A stretch of DNA of 64,000 bases, from assembly GCF_002161285.1 (NCBI RefSeq), contig NZ_NFHH01000007.1, positions 62,001 to 126,000 on the forward strand. Reading direction: 5' to 3'. The stretch's first letter is position 1; each line of letters starts with the position of its first letter. The notes beneath the pieces were generated by a model. That model saw only the letters and a program-made list of their open reading frames with translations. It was not told the DNA's origin and did not search any database. Below, piece by piece: positions 18,551-33,534 of the stretch. The DNA is from Blautia sp. An81 (GTDB taxonomy: Bacteria > Bacillota > Clostridia > Lachnospirales > Lachnospiraceae). Made by a program: the position numbers and the translations under genes.

Positions 18551-18579
18551 AGTATAGCAATTTTTTTGGGGTTTCTCAA
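18551..18579 (-). promoter_or_regulatory. Promoter of the mod operon
   Basis: TTGAGA (18574-18579), 17 bases, TATACT (18551-18556) on the minus strand. Start near 18544 gives a leader of about 130 bases to modA. A short stem (ACGTG/CACG) lies near 18450-18465. The promoter overlaps the stop codon of the HAD gene, so mod genes can be made independently of the upstream cluster. I see no clear Moco riboswitch and no copy of the 28.2/31.5-kb operator motif here. Confidence 0.7.
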
Positions 18580-19250
18580 GCAAATTCCTCTATTTTAACT
18601 ATTTCTCCTTCTTGGATCAGATAACTTTCTTCATTATTTTTTCTCCATCTCAGATCTTCTCTTTTATCTCCAAGGAAAAATAACTTCTGTTCTTCTTCTG
18701 GTGCTGCTACAGCAAAAAATTTATCTCTTTTATTCCATATAGTAAGGATTTCTCCGTATCCTACAGGGTTTTCCCCTGCATAATAAAGCTCATTGGCCAG
18801 CACCTGGATCCCCGTTTCCCAAATTCCCTGTGCCTCCAGCCAGAAGCGGATCACATTTCCCAAGCCTGCAGAGACGATCCAGACCGGCAAAGTTTCCTTT
18901 CTGCAAAACTCCAGGAGTTCCAGAGTTTCTCTCCTGGGAGGCAGCAGCTTTGCCGCCTTTTTTAGTATCTCTTCACCAATGCCCTCTCTCACATACAATT
19001 CCATCTGTTCCTTCCACCAGTTCTCTGCCCTTTTGTTCAAAGTTGCCTTCTCCTGCCCCTTCTTTGCAGCATGCAAAATCTCTCTTCCCATTTTCTGAAA
19101 AAGCCGGTCTCGCCCTGCGGCCAGTCCCGAAGTTTCCCCCAGTACGTGAACCGCCCCGTGAAGGGAACTGCCGAAGAGGGTCAGGGTCCCGTCAAAGTCC
19201 GTCACCAGCATTCCCCTGTTCTGGAGCAGTTCCTCTTTGATCCTGTTCAT
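18576..19250 (-). CDS. HAD-superfamily phosphatase (UMPH-1-like)
   Basis: About 224 residues from the ATG at 19250, preceded by GGAGG. HAD motif I is VTDFDGTLTLF, motif II is VSAG in PVWIVSAGLGNVIRFWLEA, the Lys of motif III lies in NKRDKF, and motif IV is FFLGDKREDLRWRKN. The helical cap between motifs I and II, with the SAGLGN motif, resembles pyrimidine 5'-nucleotidases (UMPH-1 family). Its start overlaps the end of the ModE-like gene, and it closes the cofactor-type gene block. It probably removes a phosphate from a nucleotide or cofactor intermediate. Substrate unknown. Confidence 0.75.
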   Translation of the reverse strand: MNRIKEELLQNRGMLVTDFDGTLTLFGSSLHGAVHVLGETSGLAAGRDRLFQKMGREILHAAKKGQEKATLNKRAENWWKEQMELYVREGIGEEILKKAAKLLPPRRETLELLEFCRKETLPVWIVSAGLGNVIRFWLEAQGIWETGIQVLANELYYAGENPVGYGEILTIWNKRDKFFAVAAPEEEQKLFFLGDKREDLRWRKNNEESYLIQEGEIVKIEEFA

Positions 19251-19593
19251 TCCCCGTTCCTCCATAATAACGTTCTATCACTGCATCTGCTGCTGCCCAG
19301 GCGGCCTGTTCCGCCTCTTCATAAACTTCAAGCATCTTCCGGCCTTCTGCTGTAAGGGTGGAACCGTTTTTTCTCATACGGTGCAGCAGCTGTATGCCCA
19401 GCGCCGCTTCTGCCTGGCGTACGATCCGCCAGGCCTTGCTGTAAGCCATTCCCATATGCCGGGCTGCCAGGTTCAGTGAGGAAAACTGATCTACACCGTG
19501 AAGAAGATCCGCCACTCCCCTTCCAAAGTATTCATTTCCTTTATCCTCTCTGCGCTTGATACGCAGCCGGGCAATATAATAAAATTCATTCAT
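19192..19593 (-). CDS. ModE-like winged-helix DNA-binding protein without a Mop domain
   Basis: A 133-residue protein matching the N-terminal DNA-binding domain of ModE (LysR-like winged helix): LLHGVDQFSSLNLAARHMGMAYSKAWRIVRQAEAALGIQLLHR, then a wing MRKNGSTLTAEGRKMLEVYEEAEQAA. Full ModE has two C-terminal molybdate-binding Mop/TOBE domains. They are absent, so it cannot sense molybdate in the usual way. In single-domain ModE-like proteins of anaerobes the signal is unclear. It is a plausible regulator of this molybdenum locus. The stop region overlaps the HAD gene. Confidence 0.8.
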   Translation of the reverse strand: MNEFYYIARLRIKRREDKGNEYFGRGVADLLHGVDQFSSLNLAARHMGMAYSKAWRIVRQAEAALGIQLLHRMRKNGSTLTAEGRKMLEVYEEAEQAAWAAADAVIERYYGGTGNEQDQRGTAPEQGNAGDGL

Positions 19594-19622
19594 CTGCGTT
19601 CCCCCTGCCTCTGTCCCTTCTC

Positions 19623-20831
19623 TTAGTTCTCTATCCTGCGCTTTCCCCGGTAGCAGGGCTCATCCTCTGGTTCTGCAGATTTCCAGGTACAGTTGAGTTT
19701 TCTCCCTTTCCACTCTCCGGGAAGCAGGCCTCCGGCTTTTTCCTCTATGCCTTTTTCCGTTGTCAGCCCCTCTATTTCCAGAATTTCTCCTTTCCTGGAT
19801 ATCCGGTAATCCACGATCCATGGGATCTGGAATATATAGTCATCAAGTTCTTCCATTTCTCTTCCTTCCCCAATCCTGCTGACGGAATCCAGCCGCCGCA
19901 GGCAGCAGCCGCAGGGACAGATTCCCGGCAAAAAGCGGCTTATGTCCCCTGTGCGGTAGCGAATCAGAGGCATAGCCCCGGCCTCTATGAGAGTCACTGT
20001 AAGCTCCCCCCACTCTCCTTCCGGTACTGCTTTTCCCTTTTCGTCTACAATCTCCCCAATAATATCATTTTCCCGCAGGTGCATACCCTGAAAAGCCGGA
20101 CAGGTGACAGCACCTCCAAGTCCCATTTCCCTGGACCCATAGTGGGGGTACAGTCTGGTACCCAGACGCTCTTCGATTGCTTTCATGATTCCCGGGGGAC
20201 AGGCGTCGCCGCTGACCAATCCTCTTTTGATACTGCTCTTTGGCCTCATACGGAGCAGAGACAGCAGCAGTACAGGAGGGCCTATAAACGTCTCCGGTTT
20301 CTCTTCGTCCAGAAGTTCCAGCATCTCCCCGAAGCTTCTCATGTTTCCTGCAGGCACAGGCACGGCGCCCAGCCCTTCCACAGCCTCCTGTATCAATTCG
20401 CCCAGTCCCCTGTCTCCCGTAAAAGGCATGGCGATCAAGGCCTTTTCCCCCCAATGGATCAGCTCGGAAAGTCCTGCCGAAAAAAAGGATACTGTCCGAT
20501 CATTGTCCCGGGCGGTATAAAAGACCCTTTTTGCAGGTCCCGTGGTTCCTGAGGTTTCCCAGCTTCTCACTCTCTCGATCTTTGACTGGCTGACCAGAAG
20601 CATCCGATTCCCCTGTTCTTTCAGATCCTGCTCTGTAGTAAAGGGCAGGGTTTCCAGTTCCTTCAGAGAGTTCAGGCGCCGGGGCAGGTTCCGGTAAAAT
20701 CCCTGTCTGGCGTATTCTCTTTCCAGAAGCCGGTTCAGTTTTTCCAGCTGCCGGCTTTCTATCGCCTGACGGTCCAGGATTTTTATCCCTTCCTTCTCCT
20801 TTACCCAGGAATCCAGTTTCGCTATATTCAT
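19623..20831 (-). CDS. AMP-dependent CoA ligase-like enzyme (DVU_1553-type)
   Basis: A 402-residue member of the adenylate-forming superfamily, closest in layout to phenylacetate-CoA ligase. P-loop SWETSGTTGPAKRVFYTARDND near residue 90. Adenylate-binding YPHYGSREMGLGGAVTC in the middle. Hinge motif LIRYRTGDISRF near residue 300, followed by a CPCGCCLRRLDSVSRI segment. Catabolic relatives have about 430 residues. Here it lies in a molybdenum-enzyme maturation block, with its start overlapping the radical SAM stop by four bases. From memory, this corresponds to the family NCBI calls DVU_1553. It probably activates a carboxyl group as AMP or CoA ester. The acid is unknown. Confidence 0.8.
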   Translation of the reverse strand: MNIAKLDSWVKEKEGIKILDRQAIESRQLEKLNRLLEREYARQGFYRNLPRRLNSLKELETLPFTTEQDLKEQGNRMLLVSQSKIERVRSWETSGTTGPAKRVFYTARDNDRTVSFFSAGLSELIHWGEKALIAMPFTGDRGLGELIQEAVEGLGAVPVPAGNMRSFGEMLELLDEEKPETFIGPPVLLLSLLRMRPKSSIKRGLVSGDACPPGIMKAIEERLGTRLYPHYGSREMGLGGAVTCPAFQGMHLRENDIIGEIVDEKGKAVPEGEWGELTVTLIEAGAMPLIRYRTGDISRFLPGICPCGCCLRRLDSVSRIGEGREMEELDDYIFQIPWIVDYRISRKGEILEIEGLTTEKGIEEKAGGLLPGEWKGRKLNCTWKSAEPEDEPCYRGKRRIEN

Positions 20832-22510
20832 CTATACAAAGCCCTCCCGTCAGATCCTGTCAGATTATAAATGCAGAAAGGCACCATGCCATACCGGCTG
20901 TCTGATTCCAGAATATAACACCGGCGTAAACGGTCCAGTTCCAGATTCCAGGCGTCCTGGAACAGCATACCGGAAACCGCCAGCGTATTTCTGTGGATCT
21001 CCCTCAGAAAATTGTCCAGAGAAGAAGTATCCAGAGTCAGTCTTCCCGTTTCTTCCCCGCAGCAGCAGTTTTCTTCCCGAGGCGGCTCTGTGCAGCGGCT
21101 TTCGCCGGTTCTTTCTTCCCCGCAGCAGCCATCTCCGGCCTGAAGACCTTCCCTGCAGCAGTTTCCGCTCCACTGGCGGGCCACAAAATCCCGGGCCTGT
21201 TCCGACAGGCCGGAAGTCCTTGGCTCCCCATGAGCCAGAAGTTTCATGGAACCATCTTTCTGCCTAAGGTAGTTGGCCTGAAAGGTACAGTAAGGATTAG
21301 TGGCGCCTCCTCCGGTAAAATCTCCGGCATGGATCCAGCCTCCTGTCTGTTCTTCCAGAAGCCTCAGCATTTTCGGTATGGTTATCCGATAGCTGCCTTT
21401 TGACTCGCTGCAGCGTCCGAAATAACTGACTGGCTGAAAATGAACGCCTCTTATCACAGGCATCCGGCTTCTTGCATAAAAAAGAATTTCCCCGGCCTGG
21501 TCTTCGTTAACTCCCGGAGCAATGACCGGAACCAGCACGACTCCCAGTCCCGCTGCCTCGCAGGCATCGATGGCTTTCTTTTTGATCTCCAGCAGAGGAC
21601 GGCCCCTTAAAACCTGATATGGGGCCTCTTTCAGTCCGTCAAACTGCAGGAAAACACAGGAAAGTCCTGCTCTTTTCAGCTTCTCTGCATATCCCGGTTC
21701 TTCTGCCAGACGGATCCCGTTGGTGTTCAGCTGAAAAAATGTAAAACCCAGTTTTTTCCCAAATCGAAGGATTTCTTCCAGATCTTCCCGGACCGTAGGC
21801 TCTCCCCCGGAAATCTGAAGATTAAAAGGCCCTCCCTGTTCCATGAGATACTGCATCTGGTCTTTCAGTTCCTCCAATGGTACATCCCGGCCTTGCGGGC
21901 CGGATCCGGCGAAGCAGGTCGGGCACTGAAGATTACACCTTCCGGTTACTTCCAGCAGAACACAGCAGCCCCGGCGCTGATGGTTTTCGCAGAGGCCGCA
22001 GTCCAGAGGGCATCCCTGCTTTTCAGGAAGGGCGGCGGGAATCCTGTCTGAAGGAAGGATATGTTTTCCCCAGTCCCGGTAGCTTTCCTGTGTTCCTTCC
22101 CAGATCAGCGCTTCAAATCTTCCGTGTTCCGGACATTCTTTTACCAGATAGATCCCGTCTTCTCTTACTGCTTTTTGGGCCGGCAGGACTTTCAGGCATA
22201 CCGGGCAGATGCTCTCTCCTTTTTCCTCCATATAAATTTCCTGGTTTTTCATCCAGGCCTCCATCCGGTTCTTTTCCTCTTCCCAGTTTTCTGCTGTATA
22301 ATTGATCTTCACAACCTTTTCCTTCAGGATTCCCTTGACCTCCAGAGCCCCCTTCTTTGCCGAAAAAACCGGGCGGCGGAACCGATGGTTTTCTTTTACT
22401 TCAAACCCCTCCAGCCTTGCAGCCAGCTCCTCTCCGGTAATAGGAAGTTCATATTCATACGTTCTGGCTTCTGCAAAACAGTTTTCTGTCTTTTTCCATT
22501 TAAATTCCAT
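20828..22510 (-). CDS. trsS: Radical SAM protein TrsS-like
   Basis: A 560-residue radical SAM enzyme. An N-terminal region of about 95 residues is followed by CPVC (102-105) and CPEHG, and a CPLDCGLC segment (167-174). The radical SAM cluster is C192, C196, C199 in RCNLQCPTC. The SAM GGEP-type motif is ISGGEPTVRED. After about residue 400 comes a C-terminal extension unusually rich in Cys (about 450-505: NCCREG, DGCCGEE, ENCCCGEE), which may bind extra clusters or a metal. The layout matches what NCBI names radical SAM (seleno)protein TrsS, known only from conserved neighbourhoods. I see no in-frame TGA, so this is a Cys version. Reaction unknown. Confidence 0.75.
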   Translation of the reverse strand: MEFKWKKTENCFAEARTYEYELPITGEELAARLEGFEVKENHRFRRPVFSAKKGALEVKGILKEKVVKINYTAENWEEEKNRMEAWMKNQEIYMEEKGESICPVCLKVLPAQKAVREDGIYLVKECPEHGRFEALIWEGTQESYRDWGKHILPSDRIPAALPEKQGCPLDCGLCENHQRRGCCVLLEVTGRCNLQCPTCFAGSGPQGRDVPLEELKDQMQYLMEQGGPFNLQISGGEPTVREDLEEILRFGKKLGFTFFQLNTNGIRLAEEPGYAEKLKRAGLSCVFLQFDGLKEAPYQVLRGRPLLEIKKKAIDACEAAGLGVVLVPVIAPGVNEDQAGEILFYARSRMPVIRGVHFQPVSYFGRCSESKGSYRITIPKMLRLLEEQTGGWIHAGDFTGGGATNPYCTFQANYLRQKDGSMKLLAHGEPRTSGLSEQARDFVARQWSGNCCREGLQAGDGCCGEERTGESRCTEPPREENCCCGEETGRLTLDTSSLDNFLREIHRNTLAVSGMLFQDAWNLELDRLRRCYILESDSRYGMVPFCIYNLTGSDGRALYR

Positions 22511-22532: not shown

Positions 22533-23681
22533 TCAGGTTTCTTCCATCTGGTCTCCGCACATAGCGGTCACAGCTTCCAGTACCCGGTCTGCATCCGCCC
22601 TTTTCGTAAAACGGGACAGACTCAGGCGTATAGTCCCCTGGGGCGTTCCAAGGTTCTCCATGATCCTGGGCGAACAGTGGAGCCCTGTCCGGCAGATAAT
22701 GTCATAACTGCCGGATAAAATATCTCCGGCCTCTCCCGGATGCCAGCCTGGAATTGTAAAAGAAAGCACCGGCGTAACCGGAGGTTCCGGCTGGATCACC
22801 CGGCAGCCCAGATCCCTCAGCCCCTTTTTCAGATACCGAAGGATTTCCTCCGTTTTCTCCCGGTCCAAAGGATTTTCTTCTGCCCATTGCAAGGCGGCAA
22901 GAAGGCCATGGTAAGAAGGCTCGTTTCCGGTTCCTGCCTCCAGATGGAGAGGCATTTCTTCCGGCATTTCCTTCAGATTGCTTTTTACGCCGGTGCCTCC
23001 CAGTACATAGGGATCCAAAGTAAGCCCCGGCCGGACGTAAAGCCCTCCGGTTCCCTGGGGCCCCAGCAGATACTTATGTCCTGTAAAAGCTGCCATATCT
23101 GCTCCCCATTTTTCCATTTCAACAGAGATCCAGCCCAGACTCTGGGATATATCCAGAAGCATAGCGGCTCCGGCGTCTTTTGCCATGGCCGTCAGGGTCT
23201 CTGCGTCATTGACAGCACCTGTCACATTGGAAGCATGAATCAGCACACACAGTCTGGGCCGGTATTTCCTCACGGCTGTTTTCCACACCTCCGGCTCTAA
23301 CCGGCCGGTCTTATCCACATCCAGGCAGATCACCTGGATCCCCTGTTTTTCCAGCCGATATAAAGGCCGGAGCACTGCATTGTGTTCCGCCTTTGTAGTC
23401 AGCACCCGGTCTCCCGGTTCCAGAGGAAAACCGAAAATAGCCTGGTTCAGGCCCCAGGTAGAATTACTTCCCAGAGCAATCCTTTCCGGACAGGCAACTC
23501 CCAGCAAAGCAGCCAGTTTTTTCCGTACCTGATCAAACACATCAAACTCCCGGATCCCGCCTCTGCCGGCGTCTCCCGGCAGGCTCCTGAGAGCCTGGGA
23601 AACGGCCAGGGCTACACAGTCCGGTTTCGGCCAGGAGGTGGCAGCATTGTTTAAATATACTTTTTGCTCATAACCTTTCAC
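22533..23681 (-). CDS. Cysteine desulfurase-like class V aminotransferase
   Basis: A 382-residue PLP enzyme of the NifS/SufS/CsdA fold. Start KVYLNNAATSWPKPDCV. Substrate region LGSNSTWGLNQAI. PLP Lys in AAFTGHKYLLGPQGTGGLYV. Conserved Cys in RTGLHCSPRIMENLGTPQGTIRLSLSRF, the position of the persulfide-forming Cys. This is the subfamily (TIGR01977 from memory) found near selenium- and molybdenum-dependent hydroxylases. It likely supplies sulfur (or selenium) to the molybdenum cofactor of the upstream aldehyde oxidoreductase, or to an iron-sulfur cluster. Its start overlaps the stop of the NTP-transferase gene by 14 bases. Confidence 0.85.
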   Translation of the reverse strand: MKGYEQKVYLNNAATSWPKPDCVALAVSQALRSLPGDAGRGGIREFDVFDQVRKKLAALLGVACPERIALGSNSTWGLNQAIFGFPLEPGDRVLTTKAEHNAVLRPLYRLEKQGIQVICLDVDKTGRLEPEVWKTAVRKYRPRLCVLIHASNVTGAVNDAETLTAMAKDAGAAMLLDISQSLGWISVEMEKWGADMAAFTGHKYLLGPQGTGGLYVRPGLTLDPYVLGGTGVKSNLKEMPEEMPLHLEAGTGNEPSYHGLLAALQWAEENPLDREKTEEILRYLKKGLRDLGCRVIQPEPPVTPVLSFTIPGWHPGEAGDILSGSYDIICRTGLHCSPRIMENLGTPQGTIRLSLSRFTKRADADRVLEAVTAMCGDQMEET

Positions 23682-24747
23682 CTGTCATCACCTCAAATTC
23701 TTTTATCAGCCGACGGCAGATTTCAATATCCTGTAAAATACGCTTTTTTACTTCTTTTTTCTCCAGGGCTTTCCTATATCTCTCCTCCAGAGATACACGC
23801 CTGTTCTCCATGATCAGTTTATCCGCCAGACACACCAGTACATCCTCTCTGCAAAGAGTATCCGGCTCCTGCTCAAAACCTCTGTGGGCTCCCGTTACTG
23901 CTGCCAGAGCCAGATACCCCTTTTCTTCCAGAAACTTTCTCACCGCTTTTTCATGAAAGGGCTCCAGCCGCAGCAGATCATGAAGGCAGCCTCCGCTTCT
24001 GCAAAGCTCTATATCCAGAAAAGCACCTGCTTCTGTCAGACGCCGGGCCATCCAGGCCGCCAGATCCCCCACCGCCATGCAGTGGGCCCGGATATGAGCC
24101 GGGAGATTTACTTCATCATAGAGTTTTTCACACAACTTGGGGGAAATCCCTCTGTACTTTCTGGCATAGGCCCGGATGCGGGCAAGGTCTTTCTGATCAT
24201 CAGCGTCCATCTGTGCTCCTCCATCTGCTGTCTCTACTGTTTTTGTCTTCATGACACCAAAGGCTCCCTGAAGTCCCTGGCTGCCCTGATAGTCCAGTGC
24301 TTTCTGACAGCCTGCCGGAAACAGAAAGGGGGGATGGAAAGTCTTCCCTCCTGAAGCAGGGATCAGAGCCTCTGCTTCCGGCTCTGCTGCCAAAATTCCC
24401 TCTCTCAGCTTTTGAAATGTTCCCGGAGAGGTTAGCGGAATGTCTCCGGGAAGAAAAAATACGCCCTGTCTCCTGTCCACAGCCTCAAGTCCCAGTTTCA
24501 CAGAAGCCAGCATATCCGTGTCCTGCCAGCAGGGGTTTTCTACGATCTTTACCTCCAGAGCCTTCAAGGCCCTCCTTACCTCTTCTCCCCGGTATCCCAC
24601 AACCACCGTAATATCTCTTATCCCGGCATTTTCCATACTTTGGACAGTCATAGCGATCATGGGAAAGCCGTTTATCTCCAGCAGCGGTTTAAATCCTTCC
24701 ATCCGTCTGGATCTTCCTGCCGCGGCGATCAGCCCTGCTCCTTTCAT
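23668..24747 (-). CDS. NTP transferase fused to HD domain (DVU_1551-type)
   Basis: About 359 residues from the ATG at 24747, which overlaps the preceding stop as ATGA and follows GGAGG. The N-terminal half is a MobA/MocA-like nucleotidyltransferase: GLIAAAGRSRRMEGFKPLLEINGFPMI (signature GxxxRMG-like loop), then FFLPGDIPLTSP for metal and base. The C-terminal half (about 200-340) is an HD domain: LPAHIRAHCMAVGDLAAWMA, GCLHDLLRLEP, ALAAVTGAHRGFE. One chain thus makes and probably breaks a nucleotide bond. MocA attaches CMP to molybdopterin in related enzymes, so a role in nucleotide-type Moco is likely. Here the nucleotide is not known. From memory it matches family DVU_1551. Confidence 0.82.
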   Translation of the reverse strand: MKGAGLIAAAGRSRRMEGFKPLLEINGFPMIAMTVQSMENAGIRDITVVVGYRGEEVRRALKALEVKIVENPCWQDTDMLASVKLGLEAVDRRQGVFFLPGDIPLTSPGTFQKLREGILAAEPEAEALIPASGGKTFHPPFLFPAGCQKALDYQGSQGLQGAFGVMKTKTVETADGGAQMDADDQKDLARIRAYARKYRGISPKLCEKLYDEVNLPAHIRAHCMAVGDLAAWMARRLTEAGAFLDIELCRSGGCLHDLLRLEPFHEKAVRKFLEEKGYLALAAVTGAHRGFEQEPDTLCREDVLVCLADKLIMENRRVSLEERYRKALEKKEVKKRILQDIEICRRLIKEFEVMTGERL

Positions 24748-25172
24748 GGCAATCCTCCTTTTTCCGAAAGGAGTTCCACGCATTTCTGATATACTTCTTC
24801 TACAAGTTCCGGGCATCTTTTCATTTTATTTCCCGGATCTCCCTCCAGGATCTCCCGGCAGGTACAGCCGCCATACCGGCTTTTGGTCCATTCTTCAAAC
24901 CAGTCCGCCAGCTTTTGGATCAGGATCGGGGCCTCCGGGTCTTCCAGTTCTTCCGCCTCTCCTTTTCCCAGAAAATATCCCAAGAAACAGCAGCCTCCCG
25001 TAAGAGCGCCGCAGACTCTTCCGGAAAATCCAAGGCCTCCGTTTAATCCGCTCATGGCCCGTATCAGATCCGGGTCCTCCTTTTCTTCCGATTCCAGCGC
25101 CAGGATCATCAAAATCTGGGCGCAGTAGAATCCCTGTCCTGACAGTTCCAGCATACGCTCAAATAAATCCAT
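24744..25172 (-). CDS. C-GCAxxG-C-C family redox protein (DVU_1555-type)
   Basis: A 142-residue protein of the C-GCAxxG-C-C family (PF09719 from memory). Cysteines lie in FYCAQILMI, VCGALTGGCCFLGYFLG and GGCTCREILEGD, with a last one in KRCPELV. These conserved Cys may hold a cluster or act in electron transfer. The same motif occurs in many anaerobe oxidoreductase operons without an assigned function. It sits between the methyltransferase and the NTP transferase and overlaps both, indicating co-translation. Confidence 0.8.
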   Translation of the reverse strand: MDLFERMLELSGQGFYCAQILMILALESEEKEDPDLIRAMSGLNGGLGFSGRVCGALTGGCCFLGYFLGKGEAEELEDPEAPILIQKLADWFEEWTKSRYGGCTCREILEGDPGNKMKRCPELVEEVYQKCVELLSEKGGLP

Positions 25173-25758
25173 TTTTCTCTCCTTTCCTGAGACAGGCCAG
25201 GAAGTATCCGCACCCGGCTTTTCCTGCCTCTATGAAGAAATCCACACAGCTTTCCTCTGCATTTCCGTTCCAAAGACTTTCCAAAAAAAATTCCTTCCAT
25301 GCTTCCGTTTCGTCCTCCCCCTTTTCTATCTGGAATCCTGCTTTTTCAAAAGCTTCCTTCCAGCAGTTCCATATCAGAGGCTCTCTCATAGAGAGGGAAG
25401 GCGCCTTTTTCTTTTTGAAAAAAACATCGGCTATCAGCAGACAGCCATTTTTTTTCAGTACCCGGAATGCCTCTTTGAGGGCCGCATTTCCGTCTCCGCA
25501 TCCGGAGACCGTACATTCCGCCAGGCAACAGTCAAAACTTTCCCCGGCAAAATCCAGCCTTCTTATGTCTCCCTGCTCTACTCCCGGGCCTGATGGCTTC
25601 AGATCCACTGCCCTTACTTCAAATCCCAATGTTCTTAGATATGCCGCTGTTTTTCCCTCTCCAGCTCCCAGTTCCAGGATCCTGGCAGGAGGACGGAGTC
25701 CCGAAAGGGTCAGCAGTCTGGCTGTCATCTCCTGCCCGCCGGGATGACTGCCAATCAT
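25159..25758 (-). CDS. trsM: SAM-dependent methyltransferase TrsM-like (DVU_1556-type)
   Basis: About 199 residues from the ATG at 25758. A longer open frame exists, but this ATG has GGAGG upstream and overlaps the previous stop as ATGA. Class I methyltransferase: motif I ARILELGAGEGKTAAYLRTLG, motif II VRAVDLKPSG, motif III QGDIRRLDF, and SFDCCLAECTVSGCGD in place of the usual acidic loop. The C-terminal half is short and Cys/Lys-rich. From memory it matches the family NCBI calls TrsM. What it methylates is unknown; a cofactor or intermediate passed by its neighbours is the natural guess. Confidence 0.75.
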   Translation of the reverse strand: MIGSHPGGQEMTARLLTLSGLRPPARILELGAGEGKTAAYLRTLGFEVRAVDLKPSGPGVEQGDIRRLDFAGESFDCCLAECTVSGCGDGNAALKEAFRVLKKNGCLLIADVFFKKKKAPSLSMREPLIWNCWKEAFEKAGFQIEKGEDETEAWKEFFLESLWNGNAEESCVDFFIEAGKAGCGYFLACLRKGEKNGFI

Positions 25759-25984: not shown

Positions 25985-28207
25985 TTACTCCACAGTCATC
26001 CGGTGGCTGTAAGCCCCATATACCAGGTATCCTTTCTCTGTCTCGGTAAACTTTACCCAGAAAGTAACATTGCCGATCCTGGCGGAAGCAGCCAGCCAGC
26101 CCTTTTCCGGGTCCTCCACCGCTTCTCCTGAGGCTTCATAATCTTTCAGTACAGCTTCCACGTCGCTTTTCAGGATCATACGCCTGTCCATTTCTTCTTC
26201 CGCTCCATTTTCATAAAAGACCGGCAGCATAGCTTCCCTCCTTATTTCTTCCTTCCAGATTTCTTGCTGGAGTTTTTCCTTCAGTTTCAGACGGTTCGCT
26301 CTACGCCGGGACAGATCCGGCACCGAAGGAGCGCCGGTTCCATAGGCCAGTTCTAGGATATGTATGGAGTCCGCTCCTGCCCGGGTCAGCTGGTCCCTGC
26401 AGGCCATGCAGTAGGTCAGGATCTTTCTGGAGGTCCTGCCGGCTGCAAAAGAAGCTTTTTTTTCTGCCATCTCGGGATTCGCAAAGCGGACCATTCCCCC
26501 GTATCCGCAGCAGGGAGACAGGTCTTTGGAAAAGGGGGCTTCTTCTACTTTACATCCCAAAGCCCCTGCAAAATCCCGGATCTGTTCCTGGATTTTCTGA
26601 TCTCCTCTTGCCCCGCAGGCATCCTGTATAGCCACTGTCTGATCTGTCACCGGATCTTTTCCCAGTTCCAGGAGTATCTGCCATACTCCCACCGCAGAAA
26701 TTTCCGTTCTTTCCCTTAATATCTTCATGCAGGTGGGACAGGCGCAGATCACTTCCGGCTCTCCCATCTCTTTCCAGACGCTGCGGATCTTTTCCAATGC
26801 CTCTGAAGCCAGATCTTCTCTTCCTGCCCATTGGGCCAGAGCCCCGCAGCAGCCAAGAAGCAGGCCTACGCCTCCGGTAAGTCTGCCTGACAGATCCCTG
26901 TAAGCAGCTTCTACTGTATCCGGTGACACGGCAGAAGCCTGGCATCCGGGGAAAAACATATATCTGCAGTGTTCATATCCCGGCTCAGGCCTGGCCAGAA
27001 ATGCTTCATTGCAGGAGAACTGCTGGTCCAGAAGGCCGAATTCATGAACAGAAGGCGGCATTTTCTCTGTCTCCACCATGATCTTCCGGGCCATTTTGCA
27101 TACTTCCGGGTAGTCAAATCCATTAGGACAGGCAGACTTGCACTGTCCGCACAGATCACAGGCATTGATCATTCCGTTTGCCATATGATTTCCCATTACA
27201 ATAGAAAGATTGTTGTAAATTTCCCGGACAGCTCCTCTGGGATTCCGTTTATACTCCTGGAAATAGACGCAGCCCTTTATACATTCCAGGCACTGGCACT
27301 GTATACAGCGTCCGGCCTCTGCTGCCGCCAGCTCTCTGTCCGGTTTCTCCGGTCCTGTAAAAGCCCGGCTTCCTTCCACACCGTCCATGGTTACATGTAA
27401 GCGGCTCTCCTGAGGACCCGGCTGCCGCATTCCTTCCCAAGAGGCCCCCTGAAGATAGCGTTCCACTTTAGCTGATACATATTTGGCCCAGGCCAGTATC
27501 CAGGCAGCTCCGTCTTTCTTTTCCCATTTCTTTTCTGTTCCAAAAACATTTTCCGGCAGGCCGGTACGCCAAAGGCAAGGAGACAGACAGACTGCGTCCC
27601 CACATGCACCCCATTCTGAGGCTTCCCCTTCTCTAACTTTTTGGGTCATTCGAAAAAGTTCCAGAGAAGCCGTATCTGCTTCTGCTTCCTCTTCTGTAAG
27701 CCCCCAGGAAATCAGAGGTTCTCTCTGGTTTTCACACCGGGTATACCAGAAAATCTCATAGCCTTTTCTGCCCAGTTCCCAGCAGCAGGCCAGGGCAAAA
27801 AGGTCATCTCCCCCTACGATCACCTTTTTATTTTTCCGGGGGATCAGAAAACGGCTGCCTCTTTCTTTTCCTCCATACAGGGCGCAGGCTTTTTCCAAAG
27901 CCCTCACCTGGATCCCTTCCCCGACCCGGGACAAGGCGCAGGCCTCCTTGCAGGCTCCGGGACAGCCCTTTGCCAGAAGGTGGAGAAAAGGGGTAACGCT
28001 CCGGATCACTCCTGCTGCTTTTGCAAAATCCCCTTTTGCCGCATAGGCGCAGACTGCCCGCATATCCAGATGAAGAGGGCATACTGCCGAGCAGCCCGGA
28101 GGATCTTCTCTGGTACAGACAGCTTCCCTCTGATGAAGTTCTTCCTGGCCGAAAGCCTGCTTCATTAAATAATGTTTTCCCACAAATCCCCGATCCTTAT
28201 GTTCCAT
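25985..28207 (-). CDS. Multi-cluster iron-sulfur protein, dicluster/CCG type
   Basis: A 740-residue protein. An N-terminal cysteine region (GCSAVCPLHLDM and CPGACKEAC, residues about 38-95) resembles the dicluster domain of glutamate-synthase-type subunits. A degenerate nucleotide-binding middle follows (KKVIVGGDDLFALACCWELG, where GxGxxG is weakened). Then come two 4Fe-4S motifs (CIQCQCLECIKGC and CDLCGQCKSACPNG). The C-terminal part has two CCG-like domains (FFPGCQAS..., GCCGALAQW and SPCCGYGGM), as in heterodisulfide reductase HdrB/GlpC. It likely carries electrons for the Mop-type aldehyde oxidoreductase encoded directly upstream. The FAD/NAD fingerprint looks damaged, so flavin binding is doubtful. 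Spaced 100 bases from that gene by a terminator, it may be separately transcribed. Confidence 0.8.
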   Translation of the reverse strand: MEHKDRGFVGKHYLMKQAFGQEELHQREAVCTREDPPGCSAVCPLHLDMRAVCAYAAKGDFAKAAGVIRSVTPFLHLLAKGCPGACKEACALSRVGEGIQVRALEKACALYGGKERGSRFLIPRKNKKVIVGGDDLFALACCWELGRKGYEIFWYTRCENQREPLISWGLTEEEAEADTASLELFRMTQKVREGEASEWGACGDAVCLSPCLWRTGLPENVFGTEKKWEKKDGAAWILAWAKYVSAKVERYLQGASWEGMRQPGPQESRLHVTMDGVEGSRAFTGPEKPDRELAAAEAGRCIQCQCLECIKGCVYFQEYKRNPRGAVREIYNNLSIVMGNHMANGMINACDLCGQCKSACPNGFDYPEVCKMARKIMVETEKMPPSVHEFGLLDQQFSCNEAFLARPEPGYEHCRYMFFPGCQASAVSPDTVEAAYRDLSGRLTGGVGLLLGCCGALAQWAGREDLASEALEKIRSVWKEMGEPEVICACPTCMKILRERTEISAVGVWQILLELGKDPVTDQTVAIQDACGARGDQKIQEQIRDFAGALGCKVEEAPFSKDLSPCCGYGGMVRFANPEMAEKKASFAAGRTSRKILTYCMACRDQLTRAGADSIHILELAYGTGAPSVPDLSRRRANRLKLKEKLQQEIWKEEIRREAMLPVFYENGAEEEMDRRMILKSDVEAVLKDYEASGEAVEDPEKGWLAASARIGNVTFWVKFTETEKGYLVYGAYSHRMTVE

Positions 28208-28307: not shown

Positions 28308-31055
28308 TTACAGAGCATCCAGTGCAGCTTTTACCACTTCCGGTCTGGCCGGAACTCTGGTGATCCTTGCTCCGGTAGCGCTGTATATAGCGTTCAGGAT
28401 TGCCGGATGAGGTGCGGCCAAAGGTCCCTCGCCGCAGCCGGCAGCGCCGTATGGGCCAAGAGGTCTCGGGTGATTTTCCTGGTAAACCAGCTCAATGTCG
28501 TCAGGAATGTCATTGGGGTAAGGAATTCCGCACTTTAAGAGACTGGTATGTTTCTTCAGGTCCTCAAAGTCTTCTGACAGAGCCAGACCGATTCCCTGAG
28601 CAATGGCGCCCATGACCTGGCCGTCCACAACTGTCTTATTAATGATGGTGCCAAAATCAGATACCATGGTAAATTTCACAACCTTTACCTTGCCGGTCTC
28701 CATATTGACCTGTACTACAGGCAGGTTAATACAATACATGTATACAGAGAAAGGATTTCCCTGGGCCGTTTCCTGGTCACAGTCCGTGCATGCGGTTGCC
28801 ACCCATTTTCCTTCATACTTCAGCGGAAGCTTCTCTTCTACCATTTCCTCATAGGTACGATAAGTACCATCTGGTTTTCTCATGGCATTTATCAGCATCT
28901 CCGAGGCAACACGCACCGCATTTCCGGTCATGACATTGGAACGTGATCCTCCGGCGGGACCGGAATTCGGAGTCTTTCCTGTATCATTCATCACCAGTTT
29001 GATCTGGTCCGGTGTAAATCCTGCCTGACGGAGAGTTTCATGGGCGTGGGTAAGGGTACCGATATCCGCTCCCTGTCCGTGATCCTCCCAGGAATCATAA
29101 ATCGTCACCGTGTTGTCCGGATTCAGTTCTGCCCAAGCTTCTGAGGAGTCCACGCCGTCCAGGCCGCAGCCATAAACCCCCAGGGACACGCCGGCTCCAT
29201 ACTTGAATTTGCCGTTTTCTCCCTTTTCCCTGTTTAGAGTCTCTGCATAAGCTTTATTCTTCTGGTAATAAGGTCTTGCCAGATCATACAGATCCTCCAG
29301 GCAGTATACGTCTGGTTTGCAGCCATTTGGGGTCGTAGATCCTTCCGCTTCTTTATAGCAGTTCATGGCACGGAACTCAAAAGGATCGATCCCCATTTTC
29401 GCTGCCATCATATCCATTGCGATATCTCCGCCCATGAAAGACTGAGGCGCTCCGTATCCCCGGAAAGCGGCTCCGTATGCATGATTGGTGCAGACCGTCC
29501 GTGACCGGTTGCGGATATTGGGAATGTCCACTCCGGCTCCTACAAACTGGCTGAGACGCATAGTCAGCAGGTCGCCGAATTCTGAGTATGGACCGTGGTC
29601 AATAAGGTTGTCGCCTTCAAGGGCCAGGATCTTGCCTTTCTCATCCGCCGCCAGTTTGATATGCATAAAACCGGGACTTCTCTTTCCGGTATAAGTGATC
29701 ATCTGATACATGTTAAAATTCAGAGCCACCGGACGTCCTGTGACAAGGGCGGCTACCCCTACCAGCGCTTCTATGGTAGGTGAGAATTTATAGCCGAAGG
29801 TTCCTCCTGCATGGAGCTGTATCAGCCGGAGTTTTTCCGGCTCTACGCCGATGCCTGCACAGATCATGGCATGATGAAGATGGATCCCGATAGATTTGGA
29901 GTGTATGGTCACTCTTCCTTCCTCATCCATATATGCATAGGCCACGTCTGGTTCAATGGGCATATGAGGCTGTCTGGAACAATAGGCGTCCATCTCTATG
30001 ACATTGGGAGCTGTCTCCATAATAGGAGCCGTATCTTCTCCCTTTATGCAGTTGGTCTCATAGTAAACATTCGGTGTTCCCGGATGGATTTCCATAGCGT
30101 CCGGGTCCATAGCTTCCGGTGCAGACATGTACGCAGGAAGCACTTCCAGATCAACCTTCACATACTTGGCTGCTTCCCTGGCATGGGCGACTGTATCTGC
30201 ACATACCATAGCGATAGCATCTCCGTACTGGAACACTTTCTCGTCACAGAGGATCGGACGGTCCCAGCCGTCGCCTTTATTTGTGGGGAATGTGATAAGT
30301 CCGGTGATCCGGTTCTTTCCGGGAACATCTTTATAGGTAATGACCCGGTATACTCCCGGCATCTGCTCTGCCTGAGAGGTATCGATCCCCTTGATCCATG
30401 CATGGGATACTTCTGCCTGGACCAGTGCGATCTGCAGGGTATCCTCCGGAAGGGTCTTGATCTCATCGGCTCCAAAATCCCAGGATCCGGTCACTTTTGC
30501 TGCCGCCGAAGGACGGGCATAGCTGGTTCCCAAGATCCGATTATCCGTTGGCTGGAACATAAGATCTTCTTTTGTAATCTCTCCCCGCAGTACTCTGGCT
30601 GCGTCCATCACCGCATCTATCAGCGGCTTATATCCTGTACAGCGGCAGAGATTCCGGTTCTTATTGAACCATTCCCGGACCTCCGTTCTGGAGGGAGAGG
30701 GATTATTCTCCAGAAGCACTTTGGCGCTCATAATAAAGCCTGGCGAACAGAATCCGCACTGTGCGCAGCCATGTGCGATCCAGGCTGCCTGCAGAGGATG
30801 AAGGTCCTCCAGAGTACCTATACCTTCGATAGTTTCAATTTTTGCATAATCCGGCACTTTCGCTATTTTGGTAATACAAGAGCGGGTCACTTTTCCGTCC
30901 ACGATCACATTGCAGGCTCCGCAATGTCCCTCTCCGCAGCCGATCTTACAGCCTGTAAGAAGCAGTCTGTCCCTGAGCACTTCAGCTAAAGACTCGTGTC
31001 CCTCTACAACTAAAGTCCGCTGTGTGCCGTTAATCATAAGGATTTTTTTAATCAT
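28308..31055 (-). CDS. mop: Mop-type molybdenum aldehyde oxidoreductase
   Basis: A 915-residue single-chain enzyme of the xanthine oxidase family, matching the roughly 907-residue Desulfovibrio aldehyde oxidoreductase layout. First [2Fe-2S]: C40, C45, C48, C60. Second: C100, C103, C137, C139. The molybdenum domains follow: the GGTFGYKFSPT motif, AYGAAFRGYGAPQS, the QGADIGTLTHAHET segment and the catalytic Glu in GAAGCGEGPLAAPHPAI. It has no FAD domain, as expected for Mop. It oxidises aldehydes (or a related substrate) at a Mo centre and passes electrons through the two clusters. First gene of the minus-strand molybdenum locus. Natural substrate unknown. Confidence 0.9.
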   Translation of the reverse strand: MIKKILMINGTQRTLVVEGHESLAEVLRDRLLLTGCKIGCGEGHCGACNVIVDGKVTRSCITKIAKVPDYAKIETIEGIGTLEDLHPLQAAWIAHGCAQCGFCSPGFIMSAKVLLENNPSPSRTEVREWFNKNRNLCRCTGYKPLIDAVMDAARVLRGEITKEDLMFQPTDNRILGTSYARPSAAAKVTGSWDFGADEIKTLPEDTLQIALVQAEVSHAWIKGIDTSQAEQMPGVYRVITYKDVPGKNRITGLITFPTNKGDGWDRPILCDEKVFQYGDAIAMVCADTVAHAREAAKYVKVDLEVLPAYMSAPEAMDPDAMEIHPGTPNVYYETNCIKGEDTAPIMETAPNVIEMDAYCSRQPHMPIEPDVAYAYMDEEGRVTIHSKSIGIHLHHAMICAGIGVEPEKLRLIQLHAGGTFGYKFSPTIEALVGVAALVTGRPVALNFNMYQMITYTGKRSPGFMHIKLAADEKGKILALEGDNLIDHGPYSEFGDLLTMRLSQFVGAGVDIPNIRNRSRTVCTNHAYGAAFRGYGAPQSFMGGDIAMDMMAAKMGIDPFEFRAMNCYKEAEGSTTPNGCKPDVYCLEDLYDLARPYYQKNKAYAETLNREKGENGKFKYGAGVSLGVYGCGLDGVDSSEAWAELNPDNTVTIYDSWEDHGQGADIGTLTHAHETLRQAGFTPDQIKLVMNDTGKTPNSGPAGGSRSNVMTGNAVRVASEMLINAMRKPDGTYRTYEEMVEEKLPLKYEGKWVATACTDCDQETAQGNPFSVYMYCINLPVVQVNMETGKVKVVKFTMVSDFGTIINKTVVDGQVMGAIAQGIGLALSEDFEDLKKHTSLLKCGIPYPNDIPDDIELVYQENHPRPLGPYGAAGCGEGPLAAPHPAILNAIYSATGARITRVPARPEVVKAALDAL

Positions 31056-31462: not shown

Positions 31463-31530
31463 TTTTCTGAATCTTTTGCTTTAATTATAATTTGTTTTCA
31501 AAATAGAGTCAATAAATTCGCTTTTTTCCA

Positions 31531-31570
31531 ATTATTCTATTTTGAGAATAATATAATTCTCATTCTCAAA
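31531..31570. promoter_or_regulatory. Promoter/operator region of the TylF-XdhC operon
   Basis: A perfect inverted repeat ATTATTCT-N6-AGAATAAT at 31531-31552. A second, overlapping inverted repeat TGAGAAT-N6-ATTCTCA at 31543-31562 covers a TATAAT -10 box (31552-31557). A further inverted pair TCAAAATAGA (31498-31507) and TCTATTTTGA (31536-31545) lies upstream. Dense overlapping palindromes at a -10 box point to a repressor. The first repeat resembles the site at 28227. Confidence 0.6.
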
Positions 31571-31583
31571 GGGGGAATTTTTC

Positions 31584-32438
31584 ATGAAGATCATCATATT
31601 TGGCTGCGGCCAGGGAGGCCAAACCCTGGGTAATCTGCTGTCCGCCTCTGTCCGCCTTCTGGCATTTGCCGACAATAATCCCCAGACCTGGGGAAAAGAA
31701 TATGAGGGAATCCCTGTAATATCCCCTGCACAGATTCCTCAAATGGATCCCGACCTGGTCTGGATCGCCATCAAAAATCCAGCGGCCGCCTCCTCTGTAC
31801 TTTCACAGCTTCAGGATCTGGGATACACCGGTCCTGTGCAGAATCTGTCTGCCCTTCTGGATCAGATAGACTTCCGGCTTGCCACGATCCGGCTTCTGGC
31901 GAAAGAGATCCGGCAGCGCTGTCTGCCCGGGGAAATTGCCGAGCTTGGGGTACACCAGGGCGCTTCCGCCCGGGAACTGAATCGGCTGTTCCCGGAAAGA
32001 AAGCTTTATCTTTTTGATACTTTTCAGGGCTTTCCGGAAAAAGCCCTTGCTGCAGAAGCTGAAAGAAATCCATCGGTCCGGTGGAAAGATGCTTTTCAGG
32101 ATACCTCTGTTTCTCAGGTATTGGAACAGCTTCCTTATCCGGATCAGGCAGTAATCTGTGCCGGATACTTTCCGGATTCTCTGCCCTCTGCGCCTCCCCG
32201 TTTTGCTTTTGTACATCTGGATCCGGACTTATACGAGTCTGTTGCCCAGGGGCTCCGGATTTTCTGGCCACTTCTGGTGTGCGGCGGTGTCATTTTTGTC
32301 CATGATTACCGCAGTCTTCAGTTTCCCGGAGCCGGACAGGCAGTAAAAGAGTTCTGCAGGAAACACCGGCTTACCCCTCTGCCGCTGCCAGATCTCCATG
32401 GAAGCGCTTTACTTGTCAAGCAGTCGGAAGACTCCTAA
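31584..32438 (+). CDS. TylF-like methyltransferase with N-terminal Rossmann domain
   Basis: A 284-residue protein with an N-terminal NAD(P)-type fold of about 90 residues (MKIIIFGCGQGGQTLGNLLS..., FADNNPQTWGKEYEGIPVISP, LVWIAIKN). A TylF/MycF-like class I methyltransferase follows: motif I IAELGVHQGASARELNRLFP, LYLFDTFQGFPE and metal/SAM loop FVHLDPDLYESVAQGLRIFWP, then VIFVHDYRS. TylF enzymes O-methylate sugars of macrolides, but here it sits in front of xdhC in a molybdenum locus. The plus-strand position and paired operator suggest co-regulation. Substrate unknown. Confidence 0.75.
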   Translation: MKIIIFGCGQGGQTLGNLLSASVRLLAFADNNPQTWGKEYEGIPVISPAQIPQMDPDLVWIAIKNPAAASSVLSQLQDLGYTGPVQNLSALLDQIDFRLATIRLLAKEIRQRCLPGEIAELGVHQGASARELNRLFPERKLYLFDTFQGFPEKALAAEAERNPSVRWKDAFQDTSVSQVLEQLPYPDQAVICAGYFPDSLPSAPPRFAFVHLDPDLYESVAQGLRIFWPLLVCGGVIFVHDYRSLQFPGAGQAVKEFCRKHRLTPLPLPDLHGSALLVKQSEDS

Positions 32439-32505
32439 ACGCAAGCTAAAAATATGTTTAAAAACGGCAGTCTCAGATCCTGCCGCCAGGAAAGGAGTTC
32501 AGATT

Positions 32506-33534
32506 ATGTCAGAATTATATAATCTCATCGCCTCCTGTAATCCCAATCGCCAGAGCCTTATCCTCACAGCTCTGGATGGAACAGCAGCAGGTGAAAAGGC
32601 TTTTTTTGCAGATGGTTCTCTTCAGTGGGAATCCGGAAAAGAAGGATTCTTCTCTCATTTTGCCGAAAATCTTCCGGATATTTCTGCCCCCGGTATTATC
32701 ACCGAGAACAGTACACGGATCTTCTGTGAGTTTCCGGCGCATGAACAAAAGCTGGTGATCTGCGGCGCCGGTCATGTATCCATTCCAGTGATCCAGATCG
32801 GACGTATGATCGGCTGTACTGTCACAGTCCTGGAAGACCGCCCCAAATTTGCCGACAATGCCAGAAGAGCCGGTGCAGATACTGTGCTCTGCCAGCCTTT
32901 TGAAGAAGGGCTGAAAAAAATCCCCGGGGATAGGGATACCTATTTTATCATTGTGACCAGAGGCCACCGTTACGATCAGGTGTGTCTGGAAAAGATCATG
33001 AAAAAAGAGCATGCCTATATCGGCATGATGGGAAGCCGGGCCCGGACTGTCAAAGTAAAACAGGCTCTGCTGGAACAAGGCGCTGATCCCCAGATACTGG
33101 AATCCGTACACACTCCCATCGGTCTGCCTATCGGAGGAGAAACACCTGAAGAGATCGGCGTCTCCATCATAGCTGAAGTGATACAGGAAAAAAACCGCTG
33201 CCGGAAGCGGGGCGGTTTTACAAAAGAGATCCTCAGGGCAATTTTAGATGAAAAGGACAAAGACATCAAAAAAGTCCTGGCCACTATTGTGACCAAAAAA
33301 GGCTCCTCTCCCAGAGAAGCCGGGACAAAAATGCTGGTTTACCAGGATGGTCGGACTGTGGGAACCATCGGCGGAGGATGCCTGGAAGCAGATATCATCC
33401 AGAGATCCCTCCGTCTTATGTCTCAGGAAAGCCTCCCCCTGGTACTCCATCACGCTGATATGACCGGAAAAGATGCTGAAGACGAAGGCATGGTCTGCGG
33501 CGGTATGGTGGATGTTTTATTAGAAGTTCTGTAA
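32506..33534 (+). CDS. xdhC: XdhC-family molybdenum-hydroxylase maturation factor
   Basis: About 342 residues from the ATG at 32506 (AGGAAAGGAG upstream). The order is unusual. A short N-terminal segment (1-75) looks like a degraded CoxI-like half. A Rossmann domain of XdhC type follows (80-235: VICGAGHVSIPVIQIGRMIGC..., IVTRGHRYDQVCLEKIM). Then comes an intact XdhC_CoxI domain at the C-terminus (LATIVTKKGSSPREAGTKMLVYQDG, TIGGGCLEADII). Canonical XdhC has the CoxI domain first. XdhC binds and sulfurates Moco for insertion into xanthine-dehydrogenase-type enzymes, so Mop is the likely client. It is followed by the displaced tuf tail at 33640. Confidence 0.8.
   Translation: MSELYNLIASCNPNRQSLILTALDGTAAGEKAFFADGSLQWESGKEGFFSHFAENLPDISAPGIITENSTRIFCEFPAHEQKLVICGAGHVSIPVIQIGRMIGCTVTVLEDRPKFADNARRAGADTVLCQPFEEGLKKIPGDRDTYFIIVTRGHRYDQVCLEKIMKKEHAYIGMMGSRARTVKVKQALLEQGADPQILESVHTPIGLPIGGETPEEIGVSIIAEVIQEKNRCRKRGGFTKEILRAILDEKDKDIKKVLATIVTKKGSSPREAGTKMLVYQDGRTVGTIGGGCLEADIIQRSLRLMSQESLPLVLHHADMTGKDAEDEGMVCGGMVDVLLEVL

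Follow-up and report, generated by a model that had tools for sequence, protein, structure and literature searches.

The molybdopterin-dependent aldehyde oxidoreductase (Mop) of Desulfovibrio gigas has long served as a model for xanthine oxidase, yet in the literature that we searched no paper ascribes a chemistry to the genes accompanying this kind of enzyme. As a neighbourhood these genes are already known, since most of them match curated NCBI families, named DVU_1551 to DVU_1557 from D. vulgaris; Haft and Tolstoy (2025, mSystems) probably describe the surroundings of one member, the radical S-adenosylmethionine (SAM) protein TrsS, and this likely source lay outside the literature that we searched. 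TrsS is entered as a selenoprotein family in passages of a 2026 review (PMC13188914), and it resembles the tetraether synthase Tes, for which the relevant passages of the source describe a substrate carbon bound to the sulfur of a cluster (PMC9433317). Here we analyse such a gene set in Blautia sp. An81, within a stretch of 64,000 nucleotides (the window; positions 62,001 to 126,000 of contig NZ_NFHH01000007.1), in which an earlier note had pointed out Mop and a large accompanying set of genes. With a probability of about 0.38, we favour the explanation that the set comprises an enzyme unit, a shareable factory whose product would go to a lysine of the unit's DUF7479 protein, and an ordinary cofactor supply.

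Co-occurrence of the gene set with Mop

The earlier note had read an ordered series of genes from Mop to a ModE-like protein at 18576-33534, several with overlapping starts and stops, and had equated it with the DVU_1551-1557 neighbourhood. Open reading frames and family scores of the window recover all of the named genes in that order, the overlaps are borne out (4 bp between ligase and TrsS, 14 bp between desulfurase and nucleoside triphosphate (NTP) transferase, and 14 bp between methyltransferase and the C-GCAxxG-C-C protein, hereafter CGA), and this identification agrees with the NCBI family names. The run occupies the minus strand from 31055 down to 13736, Mop being first and MoaA last, and its first half reads Mop, dicluster protein, DUF7479 protein, methyltransferase, CGA, MocA-like-HD fusion, desulfurase, TrsS and AMP-ligase (an adenosine monophosphate-forming ligase). 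Six proteins of this one run exceed the cut-offs of dedicated NCBIfam models: Mop (915 residues, 28308-31055; NF045668, 1563.5 bits, cut-off 1100), the dicluster protein (740 residues, 25985-28207; NF045663, 726.5 bits, cut-off 530; domains Fer4_20, Fer4_17 and CCG), the two-CxxC DUF7479 protein or DVU_1557 (72 residues, 25755-25973; NF045645, 91 bits, cut-off 60; PF24292, 90.2 bits), CGA or DVU_1555 (142 residues, 24744-25172; NF045669, 168.6 bits, cut-off 103), TrsS (560 residues, 20828-22510; NF045646, 552.9 bits, cut-off 490) and the PaaK-like ligase DVU_1553 (402 residues, 19623-20831; NF045666, 338.6 bits, cut-off 300). The curated cut-offs for DVU_1551, DVU_1556 and XdhC_rel are not reached by window proteins, though these families are the best matches of the MocA-like NTP transferase-HD fusion (23668-24816, minus strand; NF045665, 279.2 bits against 315; TIGR03310, 86.2 bits; PF12804 and HD), the class I methyltransferase (199 residues, 25159-25758, minus strand; NF045667, 126.5 bits against 155) and the XdhC family maturation factor (32398-33534, plus strand; NF045664 (XdhC_rel_AOR), 275.5 bits against 350; TIGR02964, 135.6 bits). 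The start of the methyltransferase is most likely an internal ATG at 25758 that overlaps the DVU_1557 stop, the listed reading frame beginning at 25917.

Across 291 genomes of the window's class (taken to be Clostridia), surveyed for Mop, TrsS, dicluster, AMP-ligase, DUF7479 and methyltransferase families, TrsS is over its cut-off in 11 and Mop in the identical 11. The dicluster, AMP-ligase and DUF7479 families are each over cut-off in 12, namely those 11 and one further genome (G101; genomes and loci bear the numbers of our survey), and the twelve genomes that carry the set represent eight families. The methyltransferase exceeds its cut-off in nine genomes, all within the twelve; at the operon it falls below cut-off in G000 (126.7 bits) and G263 (110.7 bits), and in G101 it is seen with our own profile only. 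At a threshold of 1e-30 the Mop model matches 55 of the 291 genomes, 43 of which hold other xanthine-oxidase-family proteins only. In these 43 neither DUF7479 nor TrsS passes its cut-off; G132 and G226, which belong to them, encode TrsS-like proteins that score 365 and 350 bits and so miss the cut-off of 490. The association of the gene set with the Mop clade is strong, and the coincidence of TrsS and Mop in the same genomes is more than chance would give. That the set goes with this clade of Mop and exceeds a MocA/XdhC supply is supported; the condition under which the earlier note would have been refuted, namely that the families are common without Mop, does not hold for TrsS, DUF7479, dicluster and AMP-ligase among the 291.

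A genome scan with TrsS returned 45 loci, one of them a very weak match, and 32 of these are well covered, meaning that the sequence extends 6 kb or more before the start of TrsS and 3.3 kb or more beyond it (near-identical loci are all counted). Around TrsS in these 32 we find Mop at 28, the dicluster protein at 29, DUF7479 at 29, the methyltransferase at 28, CGA at 29 and the ligase at 28. The MocA-like protein (25), the desulfurase (17) and XdhC (16, where XdhC may sit beyond the stretch examined) occur at fewer loci and as such form the changeable part of the set.

Copy numbers, and the cofactor of Mop

Over the twelve genomes the dicluster and DUF7479 families each amount to 17 copies over cut-off, and there are likewise 17 copies of Mop, 15 of them over cut-off, together with a third copy in G090 (L068) and a cut copy in G101. 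In G090, three Mop-dicluster-DUF7479 units (L067, L068 and L069) stand against a single TrsS, a single methyltransferase and a single ligase over cut-off. G179 has two each of the unit, TrsS and the methyltransferase, with a single ligase over cut-off. In G277, Mop and the ligase are not on the contig that carries TrsS, and CGA and the ligase leave no space between them where TrsS could fit. These copy numbers suggest that Mop, the dicluster protein and DUF7479 form a client, and that TrsS, the ligase, the methyltransferase and CGA form a factory that can be shared. That the client proper is the dicluster/DUF7479 pair, rather than the molybdenum cofactor, we consider about an even bet.

Factory genes are also found in other company. 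At L059, in G111, two TrsS-like proteins that score 544.9 and 373.3 bits against the cut-off of 490 are accompanied by a ligase, a C-GCAxxG-C-C protein, a methyltransferase, a flavoprotein resembling lipoamide dehydrogenase and a DUF7479 protein whose last residues are LEGK. A stand-alone protein there matches our own profile of the dicluster C-terminal domain at 52 bits, and the locus contains no Mop. What L059 and the window have in common is the factory, DUF7479 and the dicluster C-terminal domain; Mop is not shared. A second such locus, L062 in G244, has two TrsS-like proteins and a ligase beside a protein of the 2-hydroxyglutaryl-CoA dehydratase D-component family and DUF5714; the 449-residue protein that follows the L059 ligase has no Pfam match, and its likeness to the L062 protein was judged by eye. 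The presence of DUF7479 and a dicluster domain in a paralogous module was seen at L059 only. In addition, a TrsS/Tes-like protein occurs in ten plasmid records, three of which were opened (L104, L105 and L106; two haloarchaeal, one Mycolicibacterium): in each, the TrsS-like gene falls short of the TrsS cut-off at 335 to 353 bits, the very next gene encodes a methyltransferase that scores best against DVU_1556 (130, 132 and 136 bits, where the cut-off is 155), and the annotated stretch contains no Mop. As neighbours on these plasmids, the radical step and the methylation would form a pair that also exists apart from Mop. Plasmid searches with Mop gave two matches, both xanthine-oxidase-family proteins at 31%, and with DUF7479 one insignificant match.

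In a rival explanation the factory attaches nothing to a protein. Its product would be a small molecule, resembling a quinone or a pterin or else a thio-acid, that diffuses to Mop and the dicluster protein and serves them as electron carrier or substrate. In known proteins the substrates of CCG sites are small disulfides or quinones, TrsS and the ligase can be unlinked from Mop, and the TrsS-like/methyltransferase pairs stand apart from it, all of which would fit such a carrier. The carrier leaves unexplained the constant C-terminal lysine of DUF7479, described below, as well as the Lys-ending DUF7479 protein of the Mop-free paralogue, and we regard it as doubtful, though a serious candidate.

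The principal suggestion of the earlier note was that the genes supply Mop itself with a molybdenum cofactor that is modified and linked to a nucleotide. The strong co-occurrence with Mop speaks for it, as do the MocA-like fusion and desulfurase within the operon and the adjoining XdhC. Among solved structures the window Mop is closest to those of Desulfovibrio desulfuricans (1dgj, 1232.5 bits) and D. gigas (1sij/1vlb, 1217.4 bits), the next match after the Desulfovibrio Mops being xanthine dehydrogenase at 256, and it has no flavin adenine dinucleotide domain, its Pfam matches being Fer2, Fer2_2, Fer2_3, Ald_Xan_dh_C, MoCoBD_1 and MoCoBD_2 only. As given in the passages on these structures, D. 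gigas Mop contains pyranopterin cytosine dinucleotide, with an oxo in place of the sulfido ligand, in a native model at 1.28 A, and further structures at 1.5-1.75 A had the cofactor refined without geometrical restraints (PMC3877041, PMC10223205). Because D. gigas Mop thus shows a plain cofactor, a modified one is disfavoured; the argument presumes that D. gigas carries the gene set, and the passages available on its genome do not mention the helper genes. The MocA-like protein and the desulfurase are, moreover, missing from part of the well-covered loci, and the factory genes recur without Mop at L059, so that this reading appears quite unlikely to us. Of the two outcomes that had been offered, a modified cofactor or a protein modification, it is the latter that fits better. 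The proposed carboxylate activation and radical chemistry remain plausible, while the nucleotide linkage is probably the ordinary cytosine-dinucleotide step, given that the MocA-like NTP transferase is not always present. Elsewhere the source genome has a second MocA-like match that scores better than the first (135.8 versus 88.1 bits, neither of which reaches the cut-off), and it also encodes a second xanthine dehydrogenase-type enzyme. We read the MocA-like, XdhC and Mod genes as an ordinary supply of molybdenum and cytosine-dinucleotide cofactor.

A second type of Mop, of about 980 residues, was observed at L061, L072 and L074 in the order CGA-Mop-dicluster-DUF7479-TrsS-methyltransferase-ligase; G111 and G157 hold both types, each with its own factory.

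Enzymes of the proposed factory, the DUF7479 tail and a proposed mechanism

TrsS aligns with the Tes structure 7tol (E = 1.3e-85) and retains a rubredoxin-type site of identical spacing (C102-X2-C105-X20-C126-X2-H129), the ligands of the N-cluster (C167, C171, C174 and H177) and the radical SAM CX3CX2C motif (C192, C196 and C199). Met515, present in 56 of 59 rows, is aligned to the labile Met439 of Tes; Tes Tyr459 is not kept, the residue in the window being E535, and the Tes-family score of 320.5 bits is below the curated cut-off of 450. An added Cys-rich loop bears CCCG-like motifs in 50 of the 56 rows that have the anchor (three rows without it were dropped). The loop is absent from the paralogues at L054 (within L062) and L059, two at each, and also from L052 and L057, both from Mop genomes. 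There are hints in these sequences that it may serve sulfur handling. How many cysteines the loop contains correlates with the presence of a desulfurase beside TrsS (Mann-Whitney p = 0.0009, 17 versus 27 rows), a correlation that is only a hint, as ten short loci and the anchorless rows were omitted, kinship was ignored, and L010 and L006 are probably misgrouped. In relatives of TrsS the CCCG-like motifs are expanded, with up to 20 cysteines per 110 residues. Selenocysteine was considered as a key to this protein and rejected: the window TrsS has no in-frame stop, and the in-frame TGA of G157 looks like the gene's natural end.

CGA gives a confident model (predicted local distance difference test score, pLDDT, 93.6) with no fold match at E 0.001; the sole match with a probability of 1.00 is the split-Soret cytochrome c 1h21 (E = 0.045, TM score 0.65, root-mean-square deviation 6.3), an iron-centre protein. 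Given this likeness and four cysteines that are invariant in 32 rows, CGA is probably an iron-sulfur (Fe-S) protein. In the methyltransferase, Cys135 (numbered in the long reading) is present in 49 of 49 rows. On the client side, the dicluster protein combines a GltD-like Fe-S N-terminus, a [4Fe-4S] dicluster, two HdrB-type CCG motifs and a C-terminal domain; the cysteines of the motifs (C422, C453, C454, C490 and C493; C531, C566, C567, C600 and C603) are at least 95% conserved in 52 dicluster rows. The window protein has no flavin or nicotinamide adenine dinucleotide (NAD) Pfam match, whereas all three relatives scanned show flavin/NAD-type Rossmann matches.

In another explanation, the DUF7479 tail would serve for docking only, and the special Fe-S centres of the dicluster protein would be what the factory puts in place or repairs. 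TrsS and CGA do look like Fe-S proteins, and the dicluster protein has its ten conserved CCG cysteines. The AMP-ligase and the methyltransferase, on the other hand, have no obvious role in cluster assembly, and other CCG proteins are not known to require such a gene set; we hold this explanation to be very improbable.

The ligase has a PaaK-like fold (4r1l, E = 4.6e-30) and keeps its adenylation core, S94, G95, T96, G98 and the C-terminal K397 being invariant or nearly so. What it has lost is the PaaK hinge: the pattern GR.DD[MV] after CxC and GVN..P is found in none of 51 family rows (48 distinct in the hinge stretch, the window being counted twice) and in 16 of 16 PaaK-like controls, hand-picked from sub-cut-off matches of the ligase search. 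A narrower pattern gives 1 of 51 against 15 of 16. One row (L071) stops right after CxC and lacks the C-terminal part. Across this superfamily the thioester half-reaction is associated with the hinge region, which makes coenzyme A (CoA) ligase a doubtful name here and makes it plausible that the adenylate passes to an acceptor other than CoA. The L059 ligase has a sub-threshold match (E = 4e-4) to the LuxE acyl-protein synthetase. The loss of the hinge also bears on a catabolic interpretation of the operon, in which Mop would oxidise an aldehyde, the ligase would form the acyl-CoA and the other enzymes would process the product. Aldehyde oxidation does yield a carboxylate, and the ligase is PaaK-like; nevertheless, with the hinge motif gone, three Mops to one ligase over cut-off in G090, and no further acyl-CoA catabolic gene recognised among the scanned operon proteins, such a pathway is improbable.

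In DUF7479, the last residue is lysine in 48 of 48 distinct gene ends (44 LEDK, 2 LEEK and 2 LEGK; duplicate loci were removed and the L059 paralogue included). The tail reads V-E-x-x-L-E-D-K in most rows, and the window copy ends in LEDK. Among the other operon proteins the last residue varies, the most uniform being TrsS with Arg in 25 of 51, compared with Lys in 43 of 43 distinct DUF7479 rows. Tail codons differ synonymously, the next genes differ, and 27 of the 48 ends lack an AAA-TGA able to overlap the next ATG; these three facts disfavour the idea that the LEDK tail results from a ribosome-binding site or an ATGA overlap. Selection on the terminal lysine would be the simplest reading of these sequences. 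The AlphaFold2 model of DUF7479 is poor (pLDDT 66.4), and its nearest folds are the zinc-binding proteins MqsA and ZifS, none at E 0.001 or better. DUF7479 was also considered as a rubredoxin, a candidate set aside on a weak model and the absence of any rubredoxin among the best 50 of 111 fold matches. The constant terminal lysine and the lost PaaK hinge are both clues that point toward attachment to a protein, and away from the cofactor of Mop.

From the observed co-occurrence, copy numbers, retained cluster ligands, tail and hinge, it is reasonable to postulate a mechanism in three layers, whose product, acceptor, electron path and chemistry are inferred. In the enzyme unit, Mop would hand electrons to the dicluster protein, whose two CCG motifs would constitute a disulfide-handling site, with DUF7479 as the third member. 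The factory, which may act in trans, would comprise TrsS, the AMP-ligase, the methyltransferase and CGA. By analogy with Tes, TrsS would generate a carbon radical and park it on a sulfur of its C-terminal [4Fe-4S] cluster, the tetraether-synthase-like chemistry yielding a carboxylate group; CGA would be its Fe-S partner, the Cys-rich loop and, at loci that have one, the desulfurase would replenish the sulfur, and the methyltransferase would complete the product. The AMP-ligase would then adenylate the product carboxylate and pass it to the enzyme unit, the most likely recipient there being the C-terminal lysine of DUF7479, an assignment that taken by itself we hold to be unlikely. The DsrC tail docks with DsrK, and a modified DUF7479 lysine might comparably serve as a lipoyl-like arm that docks in the CCG site. 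The third layer would be the ordinary molybdenum and cytosine-dinucleotide supply by ModABC, MoaA and the MoeA-like, MocA-like and XdhC proteins.

Several observations weigh against this explanation. In G244 the TrsS over cut-off is a paralogue, and the operon copy is a 216-residue fragment (244 bits) at a contig end; the set in this genome appears split over two contigs, both pieces of which stop at contig ends. G101 has Mop (cut), the dicluster protein, DUF7479 and the ligase, with CGA directly before the ligase, but no TrsS was found in it, the best match of the TrsS search being a generic radical SAM protein at 56.7 bits; as the assembly is in 270 contigs, a gap may hide the gene. Eight genomes (those of L016, L018, L021, L027, L028, L030, L032 and L045) were picked because the available TrsS stretch lacked Mop. 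In five of them Mop is over cut-off elsewhere, in one it is just under (1099.7 versus 1100), and in two there is none: the genome of L028, kin of L027 and L030, has TrsS and the ligase, yet no Mop was found, and that of L045 has no Mop found and a TrsS that is 36% identical and below the TrsS cut-off. The L016, L021 and L032 stretches are short; those of L018, L027, L028 and L030 are not, and TrsS is therefore truly away from Mop there. Nor does the enzyme unit always form a single cluster: in G184 about 22 kb separate Mop from the dicluster and DUF7479 genes, which stand beside the factory. G111, G157 and G179 have a factory beside each Mop copy (G179 without a second ligase), and sharing in trans thus rests mainly on G090. 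Both paralogue genomes, G111 (home of L059) and G244, have Mop elsewhere, and the TrsS-like/methyltransferase pairs exist away from Mop. A looser hinge pattern finds GRIDN-like remnants in 6 of the 51 ligases. Last, as the poor model of DUF7479 is nearest to the zinc-binding domain of MqsA, its tail may be a docking motif only.

Even so, the ordinary and surplus parts of the set can largely be separated, and distinguishing the part that would serve the partner from that which serves the molybdenum site narrows the puzzle to one lysine, one ligase and a protein of about 70 residues. At its most specific, the favoured explanation would amount to a new protein cofactor system, in which TrsS acts on an unactivated carbon of a carboxylic acid, inserting sulfur or coupling carbon there, an AMP-ligase that has ceased to form CoA esters attaches the product to the DUF7479 lysine, and the resulting arm shuttles electrons between Mop and the HdrB-like disulfide site; in this complete form it is decidedly unlikely. 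If true, it would be a second lipoyl-like swinging arm, placed at the very end of a protein, with a sister system beside a 2-hydroxyacyl-CoA dehydratase-type protein, and the arm would be a new kind of protein-bound redox cofactor derived from tetraether-synthase-like chemistry.

Remaining genes of the locus, and comparison with known systems

The second half of the minus-strand run consists of ModE-like, HAD phosphatase, ModA, ModB, ModC-like, MoeA/MoaB-like and MoaA genes, and from ModA onward it continues past the span of the earlier note, which had also left the HAD family phosphatase unnamed (18576-19265; PF12710, 39.4 bits). The class-V pyridoxal phosphate-dependent cysteine desulfurase-like enzyme of the first half (22533-23681) matches the general family TIGR01977 at 300.3 bits, below 377, and PF00266. 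The ModE-like regulator (19192-19593) is a weak match (TIGR00637, 32.6 bits, below 98.5; PF00126); ModA, the molybdate-binding protein (17488-18411; TIGR01256, 121.7 bits), the ModB permease (16817-17491; TIGR02141, 211.1 bits) and MoaA (13736-14773; TIGR02666, 358.7 bits) are over their cut-offs. The ModC-like ATPase (15756-16820) is named by its place, as TIGR02142 gives 195 bits, below 285, and other ABC families score slightly higher, and the MoeA/MoaB-domain protein (14737-15759) matches TIGR00177 at 67.9 bits, below 85.35. All of these genes are on the minus strand. The plus strand carries two genes at 31584-33534, XdhC and, overlapping it, a TylF-type methyltransferase with a NeuD-like N-terminus (31584-32438; PF05711, 70.3 bits; TIGR03570, weak); a protein matching the TylF profile is on the stretch at 13 of the 32 well-covered TrsS loci. 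Beside XdhC, 33818-37975 encodes a cytosine-5 DNA methyltransferase (36458-37975), a 322-residue protein and an AAA ATPase weakly similar to MAD3/PtuA, and from its sequences looks like a restriction or defence island. A FolB-FolK fusion lies at 5158-5976.

Among known systems, the window agrees most directly with the NCBIfam DVU_1551-1557/TrsS neighbourhood, having the same families (NF045645, NF045646 and NF045663-NF045669); it differs in that three members are below their cut-offs, TrsS has no in-frame stop and a repeated Cys-rich loop, and the desulfurase stands before TrsS. It shares MocA-like and XdhC-like genes with the maturation of xanthine-oxidase-family enzymes by MocA and XdhC, to which it adds the Tes-like radical SAM, AMP-ligase, methyltransferase, CGA, dicluster and DUF7479 proteins. 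TrsS is like Tes, or GDGT-MAS (MJ0619), in its rubredoxin-type, N-cluster and radical SAM ligands and in the labile Met of the C-cluster, whereas it differs in its sub-cut-off score, in the change of Tyr459 to E535, in the added loop, and in having ligase and methyltransferase neighbours. The attachment of lipoate by LplA-type ligases is an analogy for the proposed last step, as there too a carboxylate is adenylated and the lysine lies in an acidic context, here LEDK-stop; the ligase of the window, however, belongs to another superfamily, the lysine terminates a small zinc-ribbon-like protein that has no lipoyl domain, and the modification is one that we propose. Finally, the CCG proteins of the HdrB/DsrK type that work with DsrC offer a parallel for the enzyme unit, in that two complete CCG motifs are accompanied by a small partner with a constant C-terminal tail; in the window that tail ends in lysine and not in cysteines, the dicluster protein has a GltD-like N-terminus, and the electron donor is presumably Mop.

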